NCBI GenBank assembly: GCA_020847735.1
Contig: JADLBL010000020.1
Location: forward strand, 257,632 to 321,631
DNA length: 64,000 bases
Source of the DNA: Candidatus Eisenbacteria bacterium
Lineage (GTDB): Bacteria > Eisenbacteria > RBG-16-71-46
Direction of reading: 5' to 3'
Shown: positions 53,508 to 64,000 of the stretch, piece by piece
Numbering within the stretch: the first letter of the stretch is position 1
How the letters are laid out: every line of letters begins with the position of its first letter
Translations under genes and position numbers: made by a program
The notes under the pieces: generated by a model
Database searches by the model: none
The model's input: the letters and a program-made list of their open reading frames with translations, nothing else
Told to the model about the DNA's origin: nothing

Positions 53508-54640
53508 TGCGCGTCGTCCACGTCGTCGAGGCGATGCACCAGGGCGGCGCCGAGTCGCTGGTCGTCGAGCACGTGCGCCTGGCGTCGCCGGAGGTCAAGA
53601 GCACGGTGGTGGCGCTCAATCGCGGCGGTCCCGCGCTCGAGGCGGCGGCCGCGGCCGGCGCGGAGACCGTCGTGCTCGGCAAGGGCGCCGCGCGGGCGGC
53701 GGGCCTCGTGCGGCTGACCTCGCTGCTGCGTGCGCGTCGCGCGGACGTCGTCAACGGGCACAACCCGAGCGGGGCGATGTACGGAACCCTCGCGGCGCGG
53801 CTCGCGGGCGTGCCGGTCGCGGTGCGCACCGAGCACAGCATCCACTACCCGGGCCGGGCGTTCCGATTCTACGGGCCCGTCGAGGCGATGCTCACGCGCC
53901 TGACGGATCGGGTGATCTGCGTGTGCGAAGCCGCGCGGGCCAGCCACGCGCCGCGATTCCGCGGCAGCGAGGAGCGCTTCGTGACGATCGCGAACGGCAT
54001 CGCCGAGGCGCCACCGCCGCGGCCGCGCGCGCAGACGCGCGCGGCGCTCGGCATTCCGCCCGCGGCGGCGGTCGCCCTGACCGTCGGCAGCCTGACGCCG
54101 CAGAAGTCGCAGGACGTGCTCCTGCGGGCGATGGCCGTCGCGCGACGGCGCGCGCCCGGCGCGGTGCTGCTCGTCGCGGGCGAGGGCAGGCTGCGCGAGC
54201 GTCTGCAGGCGCTGCACGCCGAGCTGGGACTGGGCGATGCGGTTCGTTTCCTCGGTCCGAGGAACGACGTGCCGGACCTGATGGCGGCGTGCGACGTTTT
54301 CGTGCTGTCCTCCTCGCGGGAAGGGCTGTCGGTGACGCTGCTCGAGGCGATGCGTGCGGCGCGCGCGGCGATCGCGACCGCGGTCGGCGGCAACGCCGAA
54401 GCGGTGGCCGACGGCGTCACGGGCCGCATCGTGCCGGTGGGCGACGTGGCGGAGATGGCCGGGGCCCTGGCGGACCTGCTCGCGGACGAGCAGCGCCGCG
54501 CCGTCCTCGGCGCGGCCGGCCGGGAGCGCTGGCGCGAGCGCTTCACCGCCGCGCGCATGGTCGGCGAAACCGAGGCGCTGTATCGCGAGGCGCTCGCGCG
54601 GCGCGGCGGGGGAGGGCCCCATGCGGCTGCTCGAGGCTGA
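53507..54640 (+). CDS. GT4 family glycosyltransferase
   Basis: 377 aa from the ATG at 53507; a GTG three bases earlier is possible. VVHVVEAMHQGGAESLVVEH and NGHNPSGAMYG at the N-terminus and SSSREGLSVTLLEAMRAARA in the donor lobe place it in GT4. Its last 20 bases overlap the CapA-like gene, the largest overlap in the run. Confidence 0.88.
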   Translation: MRVVHVVEAMHQGGAESLVVEHVRLASPEVKSTVVALNRGGPALEAAAAAGAETVVLGKGAARAAGLVRLTSLLRARRADVVNGHNPSGAMYGTLAARLAGVPVAVRTEHSIHYPGRAFRFYGPVEAMLTRLTDRVICVCEAARASHAPRFRGSEERFVTIANGIAEAPPPRPRAQTRAALGIPPAAAVALTVGSLTPQKSQDVLLRAMAVARRRAPGAVLLVAGEGRLRERLQALHAELGLGDAVRFLGPRNDVPDLMAACDVFVLSSSREGLSVTLLEAMRAARAAIATAVGGNAEAVADGVTGRIVPVGDVAEMAGALADLLADEQRRAVLGAAGRERWRERFTAARMVGETEALYREALARRGGGGPHAAARG

Positions 54641-55769
54641 GGGCGCGCTGCGGCTCACGCTCGCCGCGGTCGGCGACGTCGGCGTCCTCGGTTCGGTGCG
54701 ACGGCGCGCCGCGAGCGAGGGGCCCGATGCGCCGTTCGCGGCGCTGGCGCCGCACGCGCGCGCCGCCGATCTGGCCTTCGCCAACCTCGAGTTCCCGGTC
54801 GGCGAGCGCGCCTGGGTTCGCCCGGGGCGCGCGGACGAGTTCTTCCACGACGCCGGGGTGCCGGCGGCGCTCGCGCGCGCGGGCTTCCGCGTCGTGTCGC
54901 TCGCGAACAACCACATGATGGACTGCGGCGAGCGGGGCCTCGCGCGAACGCTCGACGCCTGTCGGTCCGCGGGGCTGGCCGCGGTCGGCGCTGGAGCCGA
55001 TCTCGAGGCGGCGCGGACCCCCGCGCGGATCGAGGTCCGGGGTGTCCGGGTCGTCGTGCTCGCCTACGCGACCGCCGGCGGCGACGCCGCAACGTCCGGC
55101 CGGGCCGGCGTCGCGCCGCTCGAGCCGGAACTCGTTGCCGCGGACCTCGCGCGCTGGCGGCCTCAGGCGGACGTGCTCGTGGTGAGCGTGCACTGGGGAT
55201 CCATGTACGTGGACTTTCCGCCCCCGCGCGTCGTCGGAATGGCGAAGTCGATCGCGGCCGCGGGCGCCGACCTGGTGCTCGGACATCATCCGCATGTCCT
55301 GCAGGGCGCCGCAAGGGTCGGCCGCACACTGGTGCTGTACAGCATGGGCGACGCGGTCTTCGACGGCCGCTCGGGGGATTTCGAGGCCTCGGTCGCGGCG
55401 CTGACGCGCCGCGAGAGTGGTGTCTTCACCGCGCGATTCGGCGAGTCCGCCCACGGCCTCGAACTCGCGGCGCTGAAGCTCGACCCGGACGGCGTACCCG
55501 GCGAGCCCGCCGGGACCGAAGCGCGCGCTCAGGCGGAGCGGTTCGCGGCTCTGTCCGCGGGACTGGCCGACGCGGCGGCGCGCTTCGCCGCCGAGGGCGC
55601 GCCGAAACTGCTCCAGTACGAGCTGCAGAGCCTCGGAACCTACCTGCGGCAGGGCCGCTGGGACCGCGTCGCGAAGCTGCTCGGCGGCGTGCGCCCGCGA
55701 CATCTGCCGCTGCTGTGGCAGGCTGTGACCCGGCGGGGACGTGGACGGACCCCGCCGGCCGCCCGATAA
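54621..55769 (+). CDS. CapA/PgsA-family metallophosphatase-like protein
   Basis: 382 aa from the ATG at 54621, behind GGAGGG and 20 bases inside the preceding gene. The CapA pattern is clear: AAVGDVGVLG, FANLEFPVG, LANNHMMDCGERGL, VSVHWGSMY, LGHHPHVLQG and YSMGDAVFD, which carry the metal-binding Asp/Asn/His residues of the calcineurin-like fold. CapA proteins act in poly-gamma-glutamate capsule export in bacilli; many homologues sit in polysaccharide loci with unclear roles. It has no signal peptide, so a cytoplasmic role is likely. Confidence 0.88.
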   Translation: MRLLEAEGALRLTLAAVGDVGVLGSVRRRAASEGPDAPFAALAPHARAADLAFANLEFPVGERAWVRPGRADEFFHDAGVPAALARAGFRVVSLANNHMMDCGERGLARTLDACRSAGLAAVGAGADLEAARTPARIEVRGVRVVVLAYATAGGDAATSGRAGVAPLEPELVAADLARWRPQADVLVVSVHWGSMYVDFPPPRVVGMAKSIAAAGADLVLGHHPHVLQGAARVGRTLVLYSMGDAVFDGRSGDFEASVAALTRRESGVFTARFGESAHGLELAALKLDPDGVPGEPAGTEARAQAERFAALSAGLADAAARFAAEGAPKLLQYELQSLGTYLRQGRWDRVAKLLGGVRPRHLPLLWQAVTRRGRGRTPPAAR

Positions 55770-56716: not shown

Positions 56717-58525
56717 ATGCGCGTGCTGTTCGTCACGCAGTACTTCCCGCCCGAGACGGGGGCCGCGCCCGCGCGCGCCCTGCACTTCGCGCGCGCGCTC
56801 GCCCGCGCGGGCCACGAAGTGCGCGTGCTGACCGGCCTGCCCAACCACCCGGCAGGCGAAGTGCGCCCCGAGTACCGCGGTGTTCGCCGTCGCACCGAAC
56901 AGGCTGACGGTATCCGCGTCGAGCGGGTGTGGCTGTACGCGACGCCGCGCAAGACGTCGCTCACGCGCCTGTGGAACCACCTGAGCTTCGCGCTCTCGGC
57001 CCTGCCGGTCGCGTTCGCGGGACCGCGACCCGATGTCGTGCTCGTCACCACGCCGCCGCTCTTCCACGGGCTCACCGCCTGGCTGGCGGCCCGTCTGCGC
57101 GGGGCGGCGCTGGTGAACGACTGCCGCGACGACTGGCCGCACGCGGCGATCGCCCTGGGTGAGATGCGGCCCGGTTTCGTCGCCCGGGTGCTCGACGGCG
57201 TCGCGCGATTCTTCCAGTCCCGCAGCAGCCGCGTGCTGGTGGTCACCCCGGGCATGAAGCGCCAGCTCGAGTCGCGCGGGTTCGAGCCGCGGAGGCTCGT
57301 CTTCCTGCCGAACGGCGCCGACACCGAGCTGTTCCGGCCGCCGGCCGAGCGGGCGGAGCGCGGCGGACGGCCGTTCACCGTGCTGTACGCGGGCACGCAC
57401 GGGCTCGTGCACGGCATGGATGCGCTGCTCGATGCGGCGGCCGAGCTGAAGTCCGAAGGGGTGAGGTTCCGGCTCGTGGGCGACGGGGTGGCGAAGCAGG
57501 GGCTGGAGCGGGCGGCCGTCGGGCGGGGGCTCGACAACGTCACGTTCGAGCCGAGCGTGGCGCCCGCCGCGCTCGTCCCGCTCCTCCACGAAGCCGACGT
57601 CGCCGTCGCGACGACCCGGGCGAGCGAGTTCGCGGGGGAAACCATCCCGGTCAAGCTGTTCGACTACCTGGCCTGCGGCTGCCCGGTCGTCGCGGCGGTG
57701 CGCGGCGATGCCGCGGCGGTGATCGAAGCCTCGGAAGGCGGCCTGGTCGTCGAGCCCGAGAACGGAGCGGCGCTCGCGCGTGCGGTGCGGGCGCTTCGCG
57801 ACGATCCCGGTCGCCGCGAAGCGCTCGCCGCGGCCGGGCCGGTGTTCGTCGAGCGCGAGCACTCGCGGCGCGCGCTCGGCGAGAGGCTCGTCCAGGTGCT
57901 GCTCGAGGCCCGGCTCGAGTCGCACGGCCGGGACGTGGGCCCGCTGCCACGGGGGGCCCGGGCGTTCGTCAAGCGCGCCGCGGACGTGGTCCTCGGCTGC
58001 GCGGGACTGATCCTGACGTCGCCGCTGATGCTGCTGGTCGCCCTCGCCATCCGGCTCGAATCGCCCGGCCCCGTGCTGTTCCGGCAGCGCCGCATCGGCC
58101 GCGGCTCCGCCGAGTTCATTCTTTTCAAATTCCGCAGCATGGCGGCGGGCACGCCGGACCTCGCCACGCATCTGGTGACGCCCGGAAGCGTCCGAATCAC
58201 GCGTGTGGGGGCGATCCTGCGCCGCACCAGCCTCGACGAGCTGCCGCAGCTGTGGAACATCGTCCGTGGCGACATGTCGCTGGTCGGACCGCGACCGGCG
58301 CTCTACAACCAGTATGATCTGATCGGCCTGCGACAGGCCGCCGGGGTGGATGCGCTTCGCCCCGGCCTGACGGGGTGGGCGCAGATCAACGGCCGTGACG
58401 AAATCCCCATGGAGCAGAAGGTGGCCCTCGACCGCGAGTACCTCGATCGCAACTCGACCCGCTTCGACACCGAGATCCTCGTGCGCACCGCCCTGACGCT
58501 GTTCGCGATGCGGGGGATCCGGTGA
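56717..58525 (+). CDS. GT4 glycosyltransferase fused to phosphoglycosyl transferase
   Basis: 602 aa from the ATG at 56717. Residues 1-395 are a GT4 enzyme of the WbuB/WcaI kind (FVTQYFPPETGAAPARAL, GETIPVKLFDYLACG). Residues about 416-602 are a PglC/WcaJ-type transferase with the re-entrant membrane helix (ADVVLGCAGLILTSPLM), FRQRRIGRG, KFRSM and SLDELPQLWNIVRGDMSLVGPRP. The catalytic pair D507-E508 is intact. The enzyme should put the first sugar phosphate on undecaprenyl phosphate and add the second sugar, in one polypeptide. It is the best candidate for the initiating enzyme of the locus. Confidence 0.9.
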   Translation: MRVLFVTQYFPPETGAAPARALHFARALARAGHEVRVLTGLPNHPAGEVRPEYRGVRRRTEQADGIRVERVWLYATPRKTSLTRLWNHLSFALSALPVAFAGPRPDVVLVTTPPLFHGLTAWLAARLRGAALVNDCRDDWPHAAIALGEMRPGFVARVLDGVARFFQSRSSRVLVVTPGMKRQLESRGFEPRRLVFLPNGADTELFRPPAERAERGGRPFTVLYAGTHGLVHGMDALLDAAAELKSEGVRFRLVGDGVAKQGLERAAVGRGLDNVTFEPSVAPAALVPLLHEADVAVATTRASEFAGETIPVKLFDYLACGCPVVAAVRGDAAAVIEASEGGLVVEPENGAALARAVRALRDDPGRREALAAAGPVFVEREHSRRALGERLVQVLLEARLESHGRDVGPLPRGARAFVKRAADVVLGCAGLILTSPLMLLVALAIRLESPGPVLFRQRRIGRGSAEFILFKFRSMAAGTPDLATHLVTPGSVRITRVGAILRRTSLDELPQLWNIVRGDMSLVGPRPALYNQYDLIGLRQAAGVDALRPGLTGWAQINGRDEIPMEQKVALDREYLDRNSTRFDTEILVRTALTLFAMRGIR

Positions 58526-59382
58526 GCGTCCCGACGATGGTCGCGCCCGCGAAGGGGCGGGCGGGCGCGTGGCTGAAGGGCGCCCTGCTGTTCGCGCTCG
58601 TGGCACTCGCCTGGCATCGCACGCTGGCGACGCTGTGGGAGACCTGGGCGACGAACGACAACTACTCCCACGGTCCGCTCGTGCCGGCCACCTCGCTGGT
58701 GCTCGTCTGGCTGCGGCGGGACCGGCTGCGGGCCCTGCCGGTGCGGCCGGCCACCTGGGGACTCGCGCTCGTGGGACTCGGGTGCCTGATGCAGGTCGTG
58801 GGCGTGCGCGCCGACGTGCTGGCGCTGCAGGGCTGGGGATTGCTGCCGCTGCTGTTCGGACTCTCGCTCGCGTTTCTCGGGACGGCGATGACGCGCATGC
58901 TGGCGTTTCCGATCGCCTACCTCGGCTTCATGCTGACGTTTCCGCCCCTGGTCATGAACTCGCTCAGTTTCGCGCTCAAGGAGATCTCGGTCAGCGCCTC
59001 GGTCGGCGCCGCGCACGCGCTCGGCGTGCCTCTCGAGCGGGACGGCATGTCCATCCTGCTCGCCTCCGGCGAGTTGCGGGTCGAGAACCCGTGCAGCGGA
59101 CTGCGCTCGCTGCTGGCGCTGCTCGCGACCGGAACCCTGTTCGCCTACTTCCAGAAGGGCGGGTTCTGGCGGCGCGCGACCGTCCTGCTGGCGGCGACCC
59201 CGATCGCGATCCTCGGCAACGCCGTGCGTCTGCTGCTCGTCATCGTCGCGGCGGAAAGGCGCGGCGTGGTCTGGGCCTCGGGCACGTTTCACGACATGAC
59301 CGGGTACGTCGTTTACGGCGTCGCGCTGGCCGCGCTGCTGGGACTGCGCGAACTGCTGACCCCGAAGGGGGCCAGGGCATGA
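58522..59382 (+). CDS. Exosortase
   Basis: 286 aa with about seven to eight helices, GTG start in a GTGA overlap. The exosortase catalytic triad is present: Cys191 in ENPCSGLRSL, Arg236 in GNAVRL and His257 in FHDMTGY, with N-terminal NDNYSHGPLVP. Exosortases are inner-membrane transpeptidase-like proteases that cut a C-terminal PEP-CTERM-type signal, and their genes sit in EPS loci as here. No PEP-CTERM substrate is seen in the window. EpsI is a separate gene next door, whereas some XrtA proteins carry it as a fused domain. Confidence 0.92.
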   Translation: MSVPTMVAPAKGRAGAWLKGALLFALVALAWHRTLATLWETWATNDNYSHGPLVPATSLVLVWLRRDRLRALPVRPATWGLALVGLGCLMQVVGVRADVLALQGWGLLPLLFGLSLAFLGTAMTRMLAFPIAYLGFMLTFPPLVMNSLSFALKEISVSASVGAAHALGVPLERDGMSILLASGELRVENPCSGLRSLLALLATGTLFAYFQKGGFWRRATVLLAATPIAILGNAVRLLLVIVAAERRGVVWASGTFHDMTGYVVYGVALAALLGLRELLTPKGARA

Positions 59383-60026
59383 AGACGCTCCTCGCCGCCG
59401 TCGTCATGCTCGTCGCGACCTCGGCCTCGGTGCTGCTGACGCCGCCCATCGACCTCGCCGCGGGTCACGGCATCCTGCGCGGCGTGCCGCACGAGTTCGG
59501 GCCGTGGCAGGGCACCGACGCGCAGTTCGAGCAGGCCGTGGTCGAGGAGCTGCGCGCCGACGACCTGCTGATCCGCCGTTACGTGGACGGGACGCGGTCG
59601 GTGTGGCTGTGCCTCGTCTACCACCAGAATCGCCGATACGGCGCGCACGATCCGCTGCTCTGCTACACGTCGCAGGGCTACGCGGTGCGGCAGCCGGGGC
59701 GCGCGAGAGTGGACGACGGCTCGCCGAAGGGCCTGATCGTCAACACCTGCATCGCCGAACGCCGCGACGACAGCCGCGTGGTCTGGTACTGGTGGACCAC
59801 CGACGGGCTCTCGACCGGCGACGTCGGCGCCTTCCGCTCGCGCATGGCGGTGCTGGGCGCGCTCGACAACCGCTCGTGGGGCACGTTCGTGCGCGTCGAG
59901 TCGGTGCTGCGCGAGGACGGTGTCGAGGGCGCGACGCAGCGCGCGCGGGAGTTCTCGGGACTCGTGGCGCGCGAGCTGCCCGCGGTGTTCGCGCGGGCGC
60001 GCGCGGCAGCCCCCGCCGTGCCGTGA
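59379..60026 (+). CDS. epsI: EpsI-domain exosortase-associated protein
   Basis: 215 aa; the ATG overlaps the exosortase stop (ATGA). An N-terminal hydrophobic signal/anchor (about 1-22) is followed by the EpsI pattern: FGPWQGTD, LRADDLLIRRYV, VWLCLVYHQNRRYGAHDPLLCYTSQGY and later WYWW. Cys in LLCYTSQG is the usual conserved one. EpsI is needed for EPS production with exosortase in Methylobacillus; its biochemical role is not known. It lies on the extracytoplasmic side. Confidence 0.88.
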   Translation: MKTLLAAVVMLVATSASVLLTPPIDLAAGHGILRGVPHEFGPWQGTDAQFEQAVVEELRADDLLIRRYVDGTRSVWLCLVYHQNRRYGAHDPLLCYTSQGYAVRQPGRARVDDGSPKGLIVNTCIAERRDDSRVVWYWWTTDGLSTGDVGAFRSRMAVLGALDNRSWGTFVRVESVLREDGVEGATQRAREFSGLVARELPAVFARARAAAPAVP

Positions 60027-60868
60027 ACGCGCTCGAGCAGGTCGCCTTCGGCTGGCAGTGCCTGCTCGGTGCCGTGCGCGCGTGCCGCCGGCCGCGAATC
60101 TGGGGGCCATGGCTGCTGCTGTTCGCCCTGCAGGCGGTCGGGATTCTCGCCTGCTGGTGGAGCGCGCACCCGCTCGTCTCGTGGTTCGCGGCGCCGCTGC
60201 TGCGCGCCCTCGAGGGCGACGCGTCGCTGCGCTACCCGGAACTGTTCCGGCGGCTGCCGGGCCTGGCCCGGGACGCGGGCCTGCTGACCGGCGTGCTCGT
60301 GCTGCCGGTGATGGCCGGCGTCTCCGCGCGACTGTTCGAACGCCAGTTCCGCGGCCTGCCGGACGGGTCCGCCGCGGCCTGGTCCGAAGGCATGAGCCGC
60401 GCCGGCGCGCTGCTCATCGCCGCCCTGCCGGTCTCGGCCGCGACGCTCGGGCTGCAGGCGATGCTGCACGCGCTGCCGCTCGTTCGCCTTTCCGGGCTGG
60501 CGCGCTCGTTCGCGCCGCCGGCCGCGGACGCGGCGTTGCTGTTCGTGCGCATCGCCTGCGCCTTCGCGCCCGCGCTGGTCGTGCTCGGTCACCGTTCCGG
60601 TCCGCGGGCGCTGGCCGGGCTGCCCGCGACGTGGGGAAACGGCTTCCTGCCCGCGGCGGTGGCGATGCTGCTGCTCGTCCCCGCGGCCGGCCTCGCCTCG
60701 GCGTCGGTCGCGGCGGCCTCCACGGCCATCGAGCGCGGCATGCCCGAGCTGGTCGCGGCCGCGGTCCTGCTGCGCGCCGCGACCGGAGCGATTCTCGGCA
60801 TGCTCGCCAGCGGTGCGATCACCCTCGCCTGGCTCGGCGGCGTCGGCGCCGGGACGGAGGAATCCTGA
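60023..60868 (+). CDS. Unknown polytopic membrane protein in the exosortase module
   Basis: 281 aa from a GTG at 60023 (GTGA overlap with epsI). Five to six hydrophobic helices with loops of 20-40 residues, rich in Ala/Leu. A hydrophilic segment early (SAHPLVSWFAAPLLRALEGD) and RLPGLARDAGLLTG follow the first helix; charged residues elsewhere are few. I recognise no family motif. The tight overlap with both neighbours argues for a role in the same process, such as a transporter, scaffold or exosortase partner. Confidence 0.65.
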   Translation: MNALEQVAFGWQCLLGAVRACRRPRIWGPWLLLFALQAVGILACWWSAHPLVSWFAAPLLRALEGDASLRYPELFRRLPGLARDAGLLTGVLVLPVMAGVSARLFERQFRGLPDGSAAAWSEGMSRAGALLIAALPVSAATLGLQAMLHALPLVRLSGLARSFAPPAADAALLFVRIACAFAPALVVLGHRSGPRALAGLPATWGNGFLPAAVAMLLLVPAAGLASASVAAASTAIERGMPELVAAAVLLRAATGAILGMLASGAITLAWLGGVGAGTEES

Positions 60869-62391
60869 TGCGCGGCCGAAGAGCCGTGGCGGCGACGTTC
60901 GTGGCGGCGCTGCTCGCCGGCTGCGGCGACCCGGTGCTGTGGTCGCGCTGGCAGGCCGAGCGCGCGCTCTACCATGCCGCCCGAAGCGTGCGCGGGGCGG
61001 AGGCCGGCGATCCGCGCGAGGCCGGTCCGGAGCGTGCCGCGGCGCAACGCCGGTTGGACGACATCGTGTCCCGCTTCCCGGCCTCGCGCTGGGGCGCTCC
61101 GCCGGCGCACGGGCCGGCGCGGGACGTCGCGCTCGCCTCGGCGCGCGCTTCGCTGTCGCTTGCCCGGCTCGCCGCGTCGGCCGGGGAGGACGAGCGGGCG
61201 TTGCAGCTCTGGCGCGAGGCGCTCGCGCGATGGAGTGCTCTGCCCGGAGTCGTGGTCACCGCCCGGGCCGGTTCGGCGCGCGCGCTCGATCGCCTGGGAC
61301 GCTTCGACGAAGCCCTTCGGGAGCGAATGGCACTGGCGCTTCTCGATCCGCTCGGCGACCCGGACCGCACGGGGCCGGTGCGGCAGGTGCTCGATGCGCC
61401 GGTCGCGGTCGCGGCCGAACTCCGGGAACTCGGACGGCCGGGAGAGGCGGCGGAGATTCTCGCCTCGGCCGACGCGACCTTCGCCGCGGCGCTGTCCCGG
61501 GCCAGGCCGGCCGACGCCTCCGCGCTCGCGGGGGCGCTGGCGCGCATCCGGCTCGCCCGCGGGAACGCTCCGGGGGCGCTGGCCGCCCTGCGACACCCCC
61601 TGGCCACGCAGCGCGCATGGGAACGTCCCGCGCAGGCGGTGGCGCTGGCGGCGTGCGCCCTCGAGGGAGGCGTGCCGGACTCGGCGATCTCCTATGCGCG
61701 CTGGGCGGCCTCGGCGACGAACAGCCGCACGGTCGCCGGAGCGGCGCTGCTGCTGGCCGCGCGTGCCTGGGAAGCCATGGGCCGGAACGACTCCGCGTTC
61801 GCCACCTACGACGCCCTGTTCGACCGCTGGACCGATCCGGGGCTGGTCGGTCCGGAAGCGCATTTCCGCCGCGCCCGGCTGCTCGAGCAGCTCGGGCAGT
61901 GGCAGCGCGCGCGCGCGGAGTTCGTGGCGCTCGCGGCGGCCGCGCCCTCCCATCCCTACGCCTTCAAGGCCATGCTGCGGGTGGTCGAGCATCACGTCGG
62001 GGCGGGCGAACTGGATCTCGCCCGGCTGGAAGGCGAGAACGCGGTGGAACGCATGGACTACCTGCTGAGCACGAACCGCGACGCCCGGTTCCAGCGGGAG
62101 GCGGGGGTCGCCCGGGCCGAGCTCCTGTCGGACCTCGGCTCCTTCGCGCCGGCGGAGTCTTCCCTTGTGGACCTGTGGCGCCGTTTCCCGGAAGATTCCA
62201 CCACCGAGTCCGGAGCGCTCCGGGCCGCCTCGCTCGCCGAACGCCGCCCCGGAGGGCGGGCCACCGCGGTCGCGATCTACGAGGAGCTGGCGCGGCGGGC
62301 CATTTCGGCGTCCGTGCGGCGCACGGCCGCCCGCAACCTGGGGGCGCTCGGTTCGACGGGCGCTTCGGCGCGGGGAGGGGGCCGCCCATGA
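60868..62391 (+). CDS. TPR lipoprotein, probable PrsT counterpart
   Basis: 507 aa. Lipobox LLAGC with Cys19, so an outer or inner membrane lipoprotein. The body is helical with repeated TPR-like units (ALQLWREALARWSALPGVVV, AISYARWAASATN, WQRARAEFVALAAAAPSHPYAF). Position next to a PrsK kinase in an exosortase locus suggests the place of PrsT, a TPR lipoprotein of PEP-CTERM systems, but this protein is clearly shorter than typical PrsT. ATG overlaps the preceding stop by one base (TGATG) behind GGAGG; the end overlaps prsK (ATGA). Confidence 0.7.
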   Translation: MRGRRAVAATFVAALLAGCGDPVLWSRWQAERALYHAARSVRGAEAGDPREAGPERAAAQRRLDDIVSRFPASRWGAPPAHGPARDVALASARASLSLARLAASAGEDERALQLWREALARWSALPGVVVTARAGSARALDRLGRFDEALRERMALALLDPLGDPDRTGPVRQVLDAPVAVAAELRELGRPGEAAEILASADATFAAALSRARPADASALAGALARIRLARGNAPGALAALRHPLATQRAWERPAQAVALAACALEGGVPDSAISYARWAASATNSRTVAGAALLLAARAWEAMGRNDSAFATYDALFDRWTDPGLVGPEAHFRRARLLEQLGQWQRARAEFVALAAAAPSHPYAFKAMLRVVEHHVGAGELDLARLEGENAVERMDYLLSTNRDARFQREAGVARAELLSDLGSFAPAESSLVDLWRRFPEDSTTESGALRAASLAERRPGGRATAVAIYEELARRAISASVRRTAARNLGALGSTGASARGGGRP

Positions 62392-64000
62392 CTTGGAGCT
62401 GGAACGCATCGCCCGTCCAGGGAGCCGCTGTCGCGGCGAGCGCGATGCTGCTCGCCGGCATCGGGCTGTTCGGCCTGCTTCGCCGGGGACAGTGGCTCAC
62501 GACGCTGCTGTTCGCGTCGGCGTTCCTTTCGCTCGCGGCGTTCCAGGCGGGCACGCTGGGGATGGTGAACGCGGCCGACGCCGAACAGGCGCGCGTCTGG
62601 GCCACGTATCTGGCGCGGATCTCCGCCCTCGTCTCGTGGTTGTGGCTGACGCTGAGCGTCGTGCTCGGCCGCCCCGAACCGCGCCTGCAACTGCGCAACG
62701 CCGGCGCCTACCTCGTGCTGTCGCTCGTCGGTTGCGTCGTGCTCGCGTTGACCGCGGCCACTCCGTTCGCCGTGCGCGCCGTCACCGGACACGGACCCGA
62801 GGGAGTGGTCGTGTTCGGCCCGCTCGGCAAGGTGTTCCTGATGTATCTGCTGGTGGCGATGGTCGCCGTGCTCATGAACCTCGAGAGCATGCTGCGCGTC
62901 GCGCCCGCGAGCGGGCAGAAGCGCCTGCGCCCGCTGTTCCTGGCGATTCTCGTCAGCATCCTCACCGAACTGCTGGTCGTTTCCGCCGGCCTTCTCTACG
63001 GCGGGCTCAAGGTGAGCTGGATGGTGAGCTCGGCGCCGGTCCTGTTCGTGGCCGGCGTGGTGGCGGCGCTGGCCCTGGCGCGCCGCACGCTCTCGGACAT
63101 GGACGTGCCGGTGGCCCGGCCGGTCATCTACTACTCGTCGGTCACGCTGACGCTCGCGGGTGCGTTCATGCTCGGCGTGCTGGTGCTCAGCCGCCTCGTG
63201 CCCGCGATGTCGCAGCAATGGCGCTTCGGAGTGACCTTCGCGTTCGTGGTGTTCGTCGGCGGTGGCGGTCTGTTGCTCATGCTCAGCCCGCGCACGAGCC
63301 GCACGATCCGCCGGTTCGTGGACCGCAACTTCTACGCGAACCGGTACGACTACCGGCGCGAATGGGAGCGCGTGACGTCATCGCTCGTTCCCACCGGGCG
63401 TCCCGAGGAACTCGCGCGGCAGGTCGAGTCGCTGGTCGGCGCGGTGTTCGAGGCCGACCGGATCGCCATCCACCTGCGGAGCGACGCGGGGGACCTGCGA
63501 CTGCTGCACGGGCCGGCGGGGGTCGACCCGTCGCTGCCCGCGAGCCACCCGCTCCTCGGTCACCTGGGCCGGCGGCAGTTGCCGGTGGTGTTCCACGACA
63601 TGGAACACGACCTCGACATGCTGCCCCTGCTGGTCGAGAGCCACGACACGATCGAGGCCCTGCATGCGGCCGTGTGCGCGCCGCTCACCGTCGGCGACGA
63701 GGTCGTCGGCCTGCTGTGGGTCTCGCGCAAGCGCGTGGACGAGGACTGGTCCTACGAGGACGTCGAGTTCCTGGCCTCGTTCGCGCGCCACGTCGCCTCG
63801 ACGTTGTGGGCGGCACGGCAGGCGGAACTGCTCGCCGAGGCCCGTCAGCTCGAATCGCTCAACCGGCTCTCGAGCTTCGTCCTGCACGACATCAAGAACC
63901 AGGTTTCGGGTCTGTCCCTGGTGGTCGAGAATGCGCGACGGCACCTCGGCAACCCCGAGTTCCAGCGCGACGCCATGGCGGTCGTCGAGCGGACCGTCGC
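62388..64000 (+). CDS. prsK: PrsK-type histidine kinase, partial
   Basis: 537 complete codons before the right edge; the ATPase domain lies beyond it. Eight or so helices occupy the first 300 residues, followed by SPRTSRTIRRFVDRNFYANRYDYRREWERV, typical of PrsK. A GAF domain spans about 335-480, and the phosphoacceptor helix has SFVLHDIKNQVSGLSLVVENARRH with His500. PrsK is the sensor kinase of exosortase/PEP-CTERM loci, acting with the sigma54-type regulator PrsR. PrsR would be expected just outside the window. GGGAGGGG precedes the ATG. Confidence 0.9.
   Translation, partial: MTWSWNASPVQGAAVAASAMLLAGIGLFGLLRRGQWLTTLLFASAFLSLAAFQAGTLGMVNAADAEQARVWATYLARISALVSWLWLTLSVVLGRPEPRLQLRNAGAYLVLSLVGCVVLALTAATPFAVRAVTGHGPEGVVVFGPLGKVFLMYLLVAMVAVLMNLESMLRVAPASGQKRLRPLFLAILVSILTELLVVSAGLLYGGLKVSWMVSSAPVLFVAGVVAALALARRTLSDMDVPVARPVIYYSSVTLTLAGAFMLGVLVLSRLVPAMSQQWRFGVTFAFVVFVGGGGLLLMLSPRTSRTIRRFVDRNFYANRYDYRREWERVTSSLVPTGRPEELARQVESLVGAVFEADRIAIHLRSDAGDLRLLHGPAGVDPSLPASHPLLGHLGRRQLPVVFHDMEHDLDMLPLLVESHDTIEALHAAVCAPLTVGDEVVGLLWVSRKRVDEDWSYEDVEFLASFARHVASTLWAARQAELLAEARQLESLNRLSSFVLHDIKNQVSGLSLVVENARRHLGNPEFQRDAMAVVERTV

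Follow-up and report, generated by a model that had tools for sequence, protein, structure and literature searches.

A conserved membrane protein-lipoprotein pair at an exosortase locus of Candidatus Eisenbacteria and its distribution across phyla

The stretch of DNA analysed here (hereafter the window; 64,000 nucleotides (nt), contig C20:257632-321631 of a 3.66-Mb genome of a Candidatus Eisenbacteria bacterium) ends in an operon encoding an exosortase, EpsI, a 281-amino-acid (aa) polytopic membrane protein with six helices (6TM), a TPR lipoprotein and the sensor kinase PrsK. This report concerns mainly the pair formed by 6TM and the TPR lipoprotein (6TM-TPR). The genes at this end of the window are as follows.

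56717..58525, forward strand: WcaI-type glycosyltransferase fused to a bacterial sugar transferase (Bac_transf; PF02397, E 2.9e-57; GT4 domains)
58522..59382, forward strand: exosortase, 286 aa (PF09721, Exosortase_EpsH, E 4.7e-59)
59379..60026, forward strand: EpsI / DUF3485, 215 aa (PF11984, E 1.5e-26); overlap with the exosortase gene, ATGA
60023..60868, forward strand: 6TM, 281-aa polytopic membrane protein (homologues and synteny); overlap with epsI, GTGA
60868..62391, forward strand: TPR lipoprotein, 507 aa (TPR Pfam matches); overlap with the 6TM gene, TGATG
62388..64000, forward strand, gene truncated at the edge of the window: sensor histidine kinase PrsK, 727 aa (TIGR02916); overlap with the lipoprotein gene, ATGA

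Direct reading bore out the original prediction that the five genes from exosortase to PrsK are chained by successive overlaps of 1-4 bases, and extended the chain in both directions: upstream to the sugar transferase fusion, the last exopolysaccharide (EPS) gene, which overlaps the exosortase start by 4 bases, and downstream to PrsR. The full prsK gene lies at L002:5020-7203, and prsR (L002:7200-8627) is found just beyond the window, its start sharing 4 bases with the end of prsK (L002:7200-7203). All sufficiently long contigs from the window genome's family show the order exo-epsI-6TM-TPR-prsK-prsR, and this order does not reflect chance, because it is conserved across the phylum.

The lipoprotein carries the lipobox LLAGC, with its cysteine encoded at 60922-60924 and a glycine at +2. 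In E. coli, a glycine at this position directs a lipoprotein to the outer membrane, and by analogy the protein is predicted to be located there. As had been proposed, it stands in the place of PrsT but is shorter (507 aa, against 899 positions in the PrsT model TIGR02917), and it gave no match to this model at E 0.1; by these measures it is not PrsT. A TPR gene lies downstream of 6TM in 20/20 extended Omnitrophota loci, and also follows 6TM in the other extended loci with room for it; as TPR profiles are promiscuous, the pairing was judged by position and lipobox as well as by score. In many loci the 6TM stop and the TPR start overlap by 1 base, and the lipobox is conserved. In Omnitrophota, the pair heads the order 6TM-TPR-exo-epsI-prsK-prsR, stands between exo-epsI with a set of PEP-CTERM-like genes on one side and prsK-prsR on the other (exo-epsI, PEP-CTERM-like genes, 6TM-TPR-prsK-prsR), or adjoins an array of PEP-CTERM-like tails. 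In the genomes G032, G033 and G045, a PEP-CTERM gene lies within a few kb of 6TM-TPR. Judged from these arrangements, 6TM-TPR is an invariant, translationally coupled unit, the order of which is kept across phyla while its neighbours are reshuffled. In one Omnitrophota locus (L247), six consecutive PEP-CTERM-like tails were observed immediately upstream of the pair.

Loci beyond the window family were collected with the exosortase as bait. Among the 39 Eisenbacteria genomes (G000-G038), 25 had both 6TM and a full-length exosortase, one had 6TM only, one (G030) had the exosortase only and 12 had neither (P = 4e-8; this value and the next overstate independence, because the genomes are related). 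In the Eisenbacteria genomes with 6TM, its gene usually stands between epsI and the TPR gene; in the genome with 6TM only (G038), the 4.4-kb contig stops at the 6TM gene. The corresponding numbers for 285 Omnitrophota genomes were 70, 15, 17 and 183 (P = 5e-35), and, despite short contigs, 56 of the 92 Omnitrophota 6TM genes lie on a contig with an exosortase, 48 being no more than 10 kb from it. Loci bearing 6TM were found in Omnitrophota (L142), Zixiibacteriota (L186), a metagenome-assembled genome (MAG) labelled Ignavibacteriaceae (L131) and a marine bacterium (L130). Homologues of 6TM, which the original prediction had tied to exosortase genes, thus occur mainly at exosortase/PEP-CTERM loci and not mainly elsewhere, and by these counts 6TM-TPR tracks exosortase presence in at least three phyla. 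The L131 locus has an Eisenbacteria-like exo-epsI-6TM-TPR cassette and an exosortase grouping with those of Eisenbacteria, consistent with either a misbinned contig or lateral transfer.

The description of the 281-aa protein as matching nothing known held up: 6TM has no Pfam or NCBIfam family match, with none credible among 19 homologues; it matches no NCBIfam exosortase-partner model; and a search of the PDB by sequence returned nothing credible. A homologue was detected in 22 of 39 relatives by single-sequence search, and in 30 of the 47 genomes of the phylum by profile search. The most conserved positions are P50, P58, G65, Y71, P72, L78, P79, P241 and E242, several of which fall within two motifs.

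60215..60238, forward strand: motif of highest conservation in 6TM, G-[DE]-x-x-L-[HR]-Y-P, residues 65-72, with Y71 and P72 invariant; predicted periplasmic side, between transmembrane segments TM1 and TM2
60743..60748, forward strand: second conserved motif of 6TM, P241-E242; between TM5 and TM6, at an end predicted to be periplasmic

The positive-inside count (9.5 lysine or arginine residues predicted inside versus 4.9 outside) favours an N-in topology; with the orientation taken from this count, the most conserved positions are predicted to lie largely within two segments on the periplasmic side. On the evidence of its homologues and their gene context, 6TM is a real exosortase-linked family, named in no curated library.

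There is no PEP-CTERM protein within the 64-kb window, as first noted; the substrate, L244, is encoded on contig C9. The Pfam model PF07589 gave matches over its cut-off in 31 of the 47 genomes of the phylum and none in the window genome, in which two weak matches (E 0.7 and 1.3), one of them inside PrsK, were spurious. A model of the PEP-CTERM tail was built from the proteins of relatives, and was required because PF07589 missed the substrate of the window genome. A search of that genome with the tail profile returned only one strong match, the 86-aa L244 (E 1e-16; sequence MKRWLLPLALLALMAAPAFA...APVPEPGTMALASMGLIALGAAARRRGGK, C-terminal tail ...PVPEPGTMALASMGLIALGAAARRRGGK), which scores 14.6 bits with TIGR02595, just under the cut-off of 16. 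The scan for a C-terminal signal of short motif, helix and basic tail, suggested by the original prediction, yielded one substrate with a canonical VPEP...RRR tail; a novel sorting motif was ruled out, as L244 carries the plain VPEP tail. Most genomes of the window family have one or two such tiny PEP-CTERM proteins (76-110 aa), in which a signal peptide and a short body without conservation precede a tail that is strongly conserved, P(V/I)PEPGTMALASMGL(I/L)ALGAA.(R-rich). Outside the window's genus (L215, L217-L220 and L224), the mature N-terminus after the signal peptide often begins with YVQPG or similar, despite the lack of conservation in the remaining body. In one genome of the same family (G014, 96% complete), a tiny PEP-CTERM protein (L217) was found with a sigma-54-like site, and neither exosortase nor 6TM was detected, suggesting an assembly gap or an orphan substrate.

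A sigma-54 site (TGGCcC-N5-TTGC type) lies 70-95 nt before the start of 9 of the 11 family substrate genes (dinucleotide-shuffle mean 0.06), and a 17-nt box (TGTCGG-N6-(CG/TT/TG)ACA type) is present in 9/11, mostly 97-99 nt before the promoter (shuffle mean 0.07); the similarity of these elements is partly due to descent, because the 11 family members are related. Both the sigma-54 site and the upstream 17-nt box are present at the L244 gene itself. The front of the window operon has no nearby PrsR-type box or sigma-54 site, the only matches in the window being distant and at chance level.

The exosortase has the residues C191, R236 and H257 (Cys-Arg-His), invariant in 14 aligned sequences, and is the only one found in a search of the genome. 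Its best NCBIfam model is XrtA (TIGR03109; 189.4 bits, below the cut-off of 208), and the exosortases from 6TM-bearing loci of eight relatives also scored below this cut-off (168-206 bits). EpsI passes TIGR02914 (83 bits, cut-off 42.8), and the full-length PrsK and PrsR pass TIGR02916 (350.6 bits, cut-off 300) and TIGR02915 (544.6 bits, cut-off 502.6), respectively. In the exosortase tree, the 6TM label required 6 changes, versus a shuffled mean of 26.7; the label is clustered by lineage, and a single new exosortase clade for the 6TM carriers was ruled out. The suggestion of an exosortase variant outside the proteobacterial type was not upheld: because the substrate tail is canonical, PrsK and PrsR pass their cut-offs and XrtA is the best-scoring model, the exosortase is, by these assignments, an ordinary PEP-type relative of XrtA, and the novelty lies in the 6TM-TPR pair. 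By gene content, the locus is an exosortase/PEP-CTERM system under PrsK/PrsR control, complete and supplemented by a two-protein component, the inner-membrane protein 6TM and the TPR lipoprotein; we hold this explanation as a whole, with the mechanism proposed below, at about even odds.

The conserved linkage indicates that 6TM-TPR is very probably a dedicated component of the exosortase/PEP-CTERM system, and the pair is probably a missing part of the exosortase sorting machinery. As judged from sequence comparison, what is new is this pair as a conserved component in a PEP-CTERM system of a familiar type. In the mechanism that we propose, PrsK/PrsR, with sigma-54, would switch on the single tiny PEP-CTERM protein encoded elsewhere. 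The protein would be exported by Sec and parked in the inner membrane by its C-terminal helix, and the exosortase, with EpsI, would cleave it at the PEP motif and transfer it to some acceptor. The 6TM protein would dock or anchor the TPR lipoprotein, with the GE..L[HR]YP and PE motifs predicted to face the periplasm, and the pair would take up the processed product or deliver it toward the outer surface and the EPS made by the adjacent genes. Such a hand-over role, in which the pair receives the processed product and passes it on, is a reasonable possibility that falls somewhat short of an even call. We put forward only tentatively, as a doubtful proposal, that 6TM-TPR is an unrecognised core component outside Proteobacteria, serving as a membrane-to-lipoprotein conduit or as an acceptor-lipid flippase in the step after PEP cleavage.

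Several observations weigh against these assignments. Three of the 25 Eisenbacteria genomes (G032, G033 and G035) carry 6TM-TPR away from the exosortase. In Omnitrophota, 6TM was present and no exosortase detected in 15 genomes, with 17 showing the reverse, although MAG gaps may explain part of these cases. Among the exosortase loci closest in sequence, those of Nitrospirota, Desulfobacterota, Acidobacteriota and others had no 6TM within the flanks examined. As 6TM is absent from the vicinity of many exosortase loci in other phyla, it is not universally needed. In addition, the modelled fold of 6TM appears closer to transporters than to scaffolds.

The AlphaFold model of the window 6TM, obtained with 18 homologues, is all-helical (pLDDT 94.6, pTM 0.90), and that of the Omnitrophota member L142 had a pLDDT of 85.6 and a pTM of 0.83. 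In Foldseek searches of the PDB with both models, yeast PNS1 ranked first and CysZ was recurrent, but no E-value was below 0.04 and the query TM-scores were 0.37-0.53. The window model matched CysZ chains from three species (probability ≤0.97, E 0.5, target TM-score ≤0.61), the query TM-scores for CysZ being 0.42-0.53 over the two models; the L142 model matched PNS1 (probability 1.00), hCTL1 (0.95) and CysZ (0.77-0.80). Homology to CysZ by sequence was ruled out (hhalign probability 0.5%, no PF07264 match in Pfam), and no match to CysZ/EI24 (PF07264) over the cut-off was found in the 47 genomes of the phylum; the match to a general transporter family that would have contradicted the original prediction was thus not found by sequence. 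Because there is no significant Foldseek E-value and no profile-profile relation to CysZ, the modelled fold is at most distantly transporter-like, weakly resembling CysZ or CTL, without sequence homology. The recurrence of CysZ and PNS1 with the window model, and of PNS1, hCTL1 and CysZ with the independent L142 model, would fit a transporter or flippase of CysZ/CTL-like fold that supplies a need of the exosortase, such as an acceptor lipid or a small anion, with the TPR protein as its periplasmic or outer-membrane partner. We consider this rather unlikely, given the low scores, the lack of similarity to CysZ or of a PDB match by sequence, and the position of the most conserved residues, which are on the predicted periplasmic side and not along a membrane path.

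The pair might instead be the sensory input of PrsK, reporting secretion or exosortase status, with PrsR then activating the PEP-CTERM gene. The position of 6TM-TPR immediately upstream of prsK in Eisenbacteria and many Omnitrophota loci is compatible with this idea, as is the PrsR-type control region before the substrate gene, and PrsT, a TPR lipoprotein, shares the profile of PrsK/PrsR in Proteobacteria (PMC1569441). However, three loci (L252, L259 and L263) have 6TM-TPR by the exosortase with prsK/prsR not nearby, and PrsK/PrsR loci of Nitrospirota and Desulfobacterota have no nearby 6TM, making a sensory role unlikely. Finally, the 15 Omnitrophota genomes with 6TM and no detected exosortase might suggest a passenger unrelated to sorting, but this is highly improbable, given the strength of the co-occurrence in that phylum and a coupling kept in at least three phyla under differing gene orders.

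As a putative dedicated component of the exosortase system, the 6TM-TPR pair provides a concrete candidate for the step attaching exosortase substrates or bringing the products outside. Anchoring to the outer membrane, to polysaccharide or to both was still given in 2025 as a set of possibilities for exosortase products (PMC12188702). If 6TM-TPR is indeed a core component, it bears on the acceptor to which exosortases join their substrates, and on how these substrates reach the surface. With one detected 86-aa substrate, the system of the window genome is an exceptionally small example of its kind. We found no description of exosortases in the 6TM-bearing phyla, or with a 6TM partner, in the mostly open-access literature, and an earlier description is possible.

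The EPS genes ahead of the operon have features of their own. The WcaI-type GT4 glycosyltransferase and the polyprenyl-phosphate sugar transferase form a single reading frame at 56717-58525 and in several relatives; at L034, L035 and L039, the sugar-transferase half alone matches at this position. A PGA_cap-type capsule synthesis protein is encoded within the EPS cluster (54621-55769), two genes ahead of the fusion.

Of the proteins of known structure, the CysZ sulfate permease (PF07264; PDB 3tx3, 6d79 and 6d9z) has a weak overall fold likeness to the 6TM AlphaFold model, but shows no hhalign sequence relation to 6TM and differs in length and genomic context. The choline-transporter-like PNS1/CTL1 (SLC44) family includes the top Foldseek match, PNS1, for two independent 6TM models, at a query TM-score of about 0.45; PNS1 is eukaryotic and about 140 residues longer, and no sequence match was found. 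A close known system is the proteobacterial XrtA/PEP-CTERM system (PMC1569441), with the same Cys-Arg-His exosortase, EpsI, PrsK, PrsR, EPS neighbourhood and PEP-CTERM substrate. A pair of 17-nt motifs, of which one ends in TTTACA and the other is sigma-54, has been described before PEP-CTERM genes of Proteobacteria and tied to PrsR, the promoter motif being reported in Proteobacteria alone (PMC1569441); the sigma-54 site and upstream box described here resemble this PrsR regulon, likened by described form and not letter by letter. Unlike the proteobacterial system, the Eisenbacteria locus has 6TM in addition, a 507-aa TPR lipoprotein that is not PrsT, an exosortase under the XrtA cut-off and one detected 86-aa substrate. 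Other exosortase-family proteins also have a dedicated adjacent partner, an arrangement like that of the 6TM loci, from which they differ in gene set and phyla.

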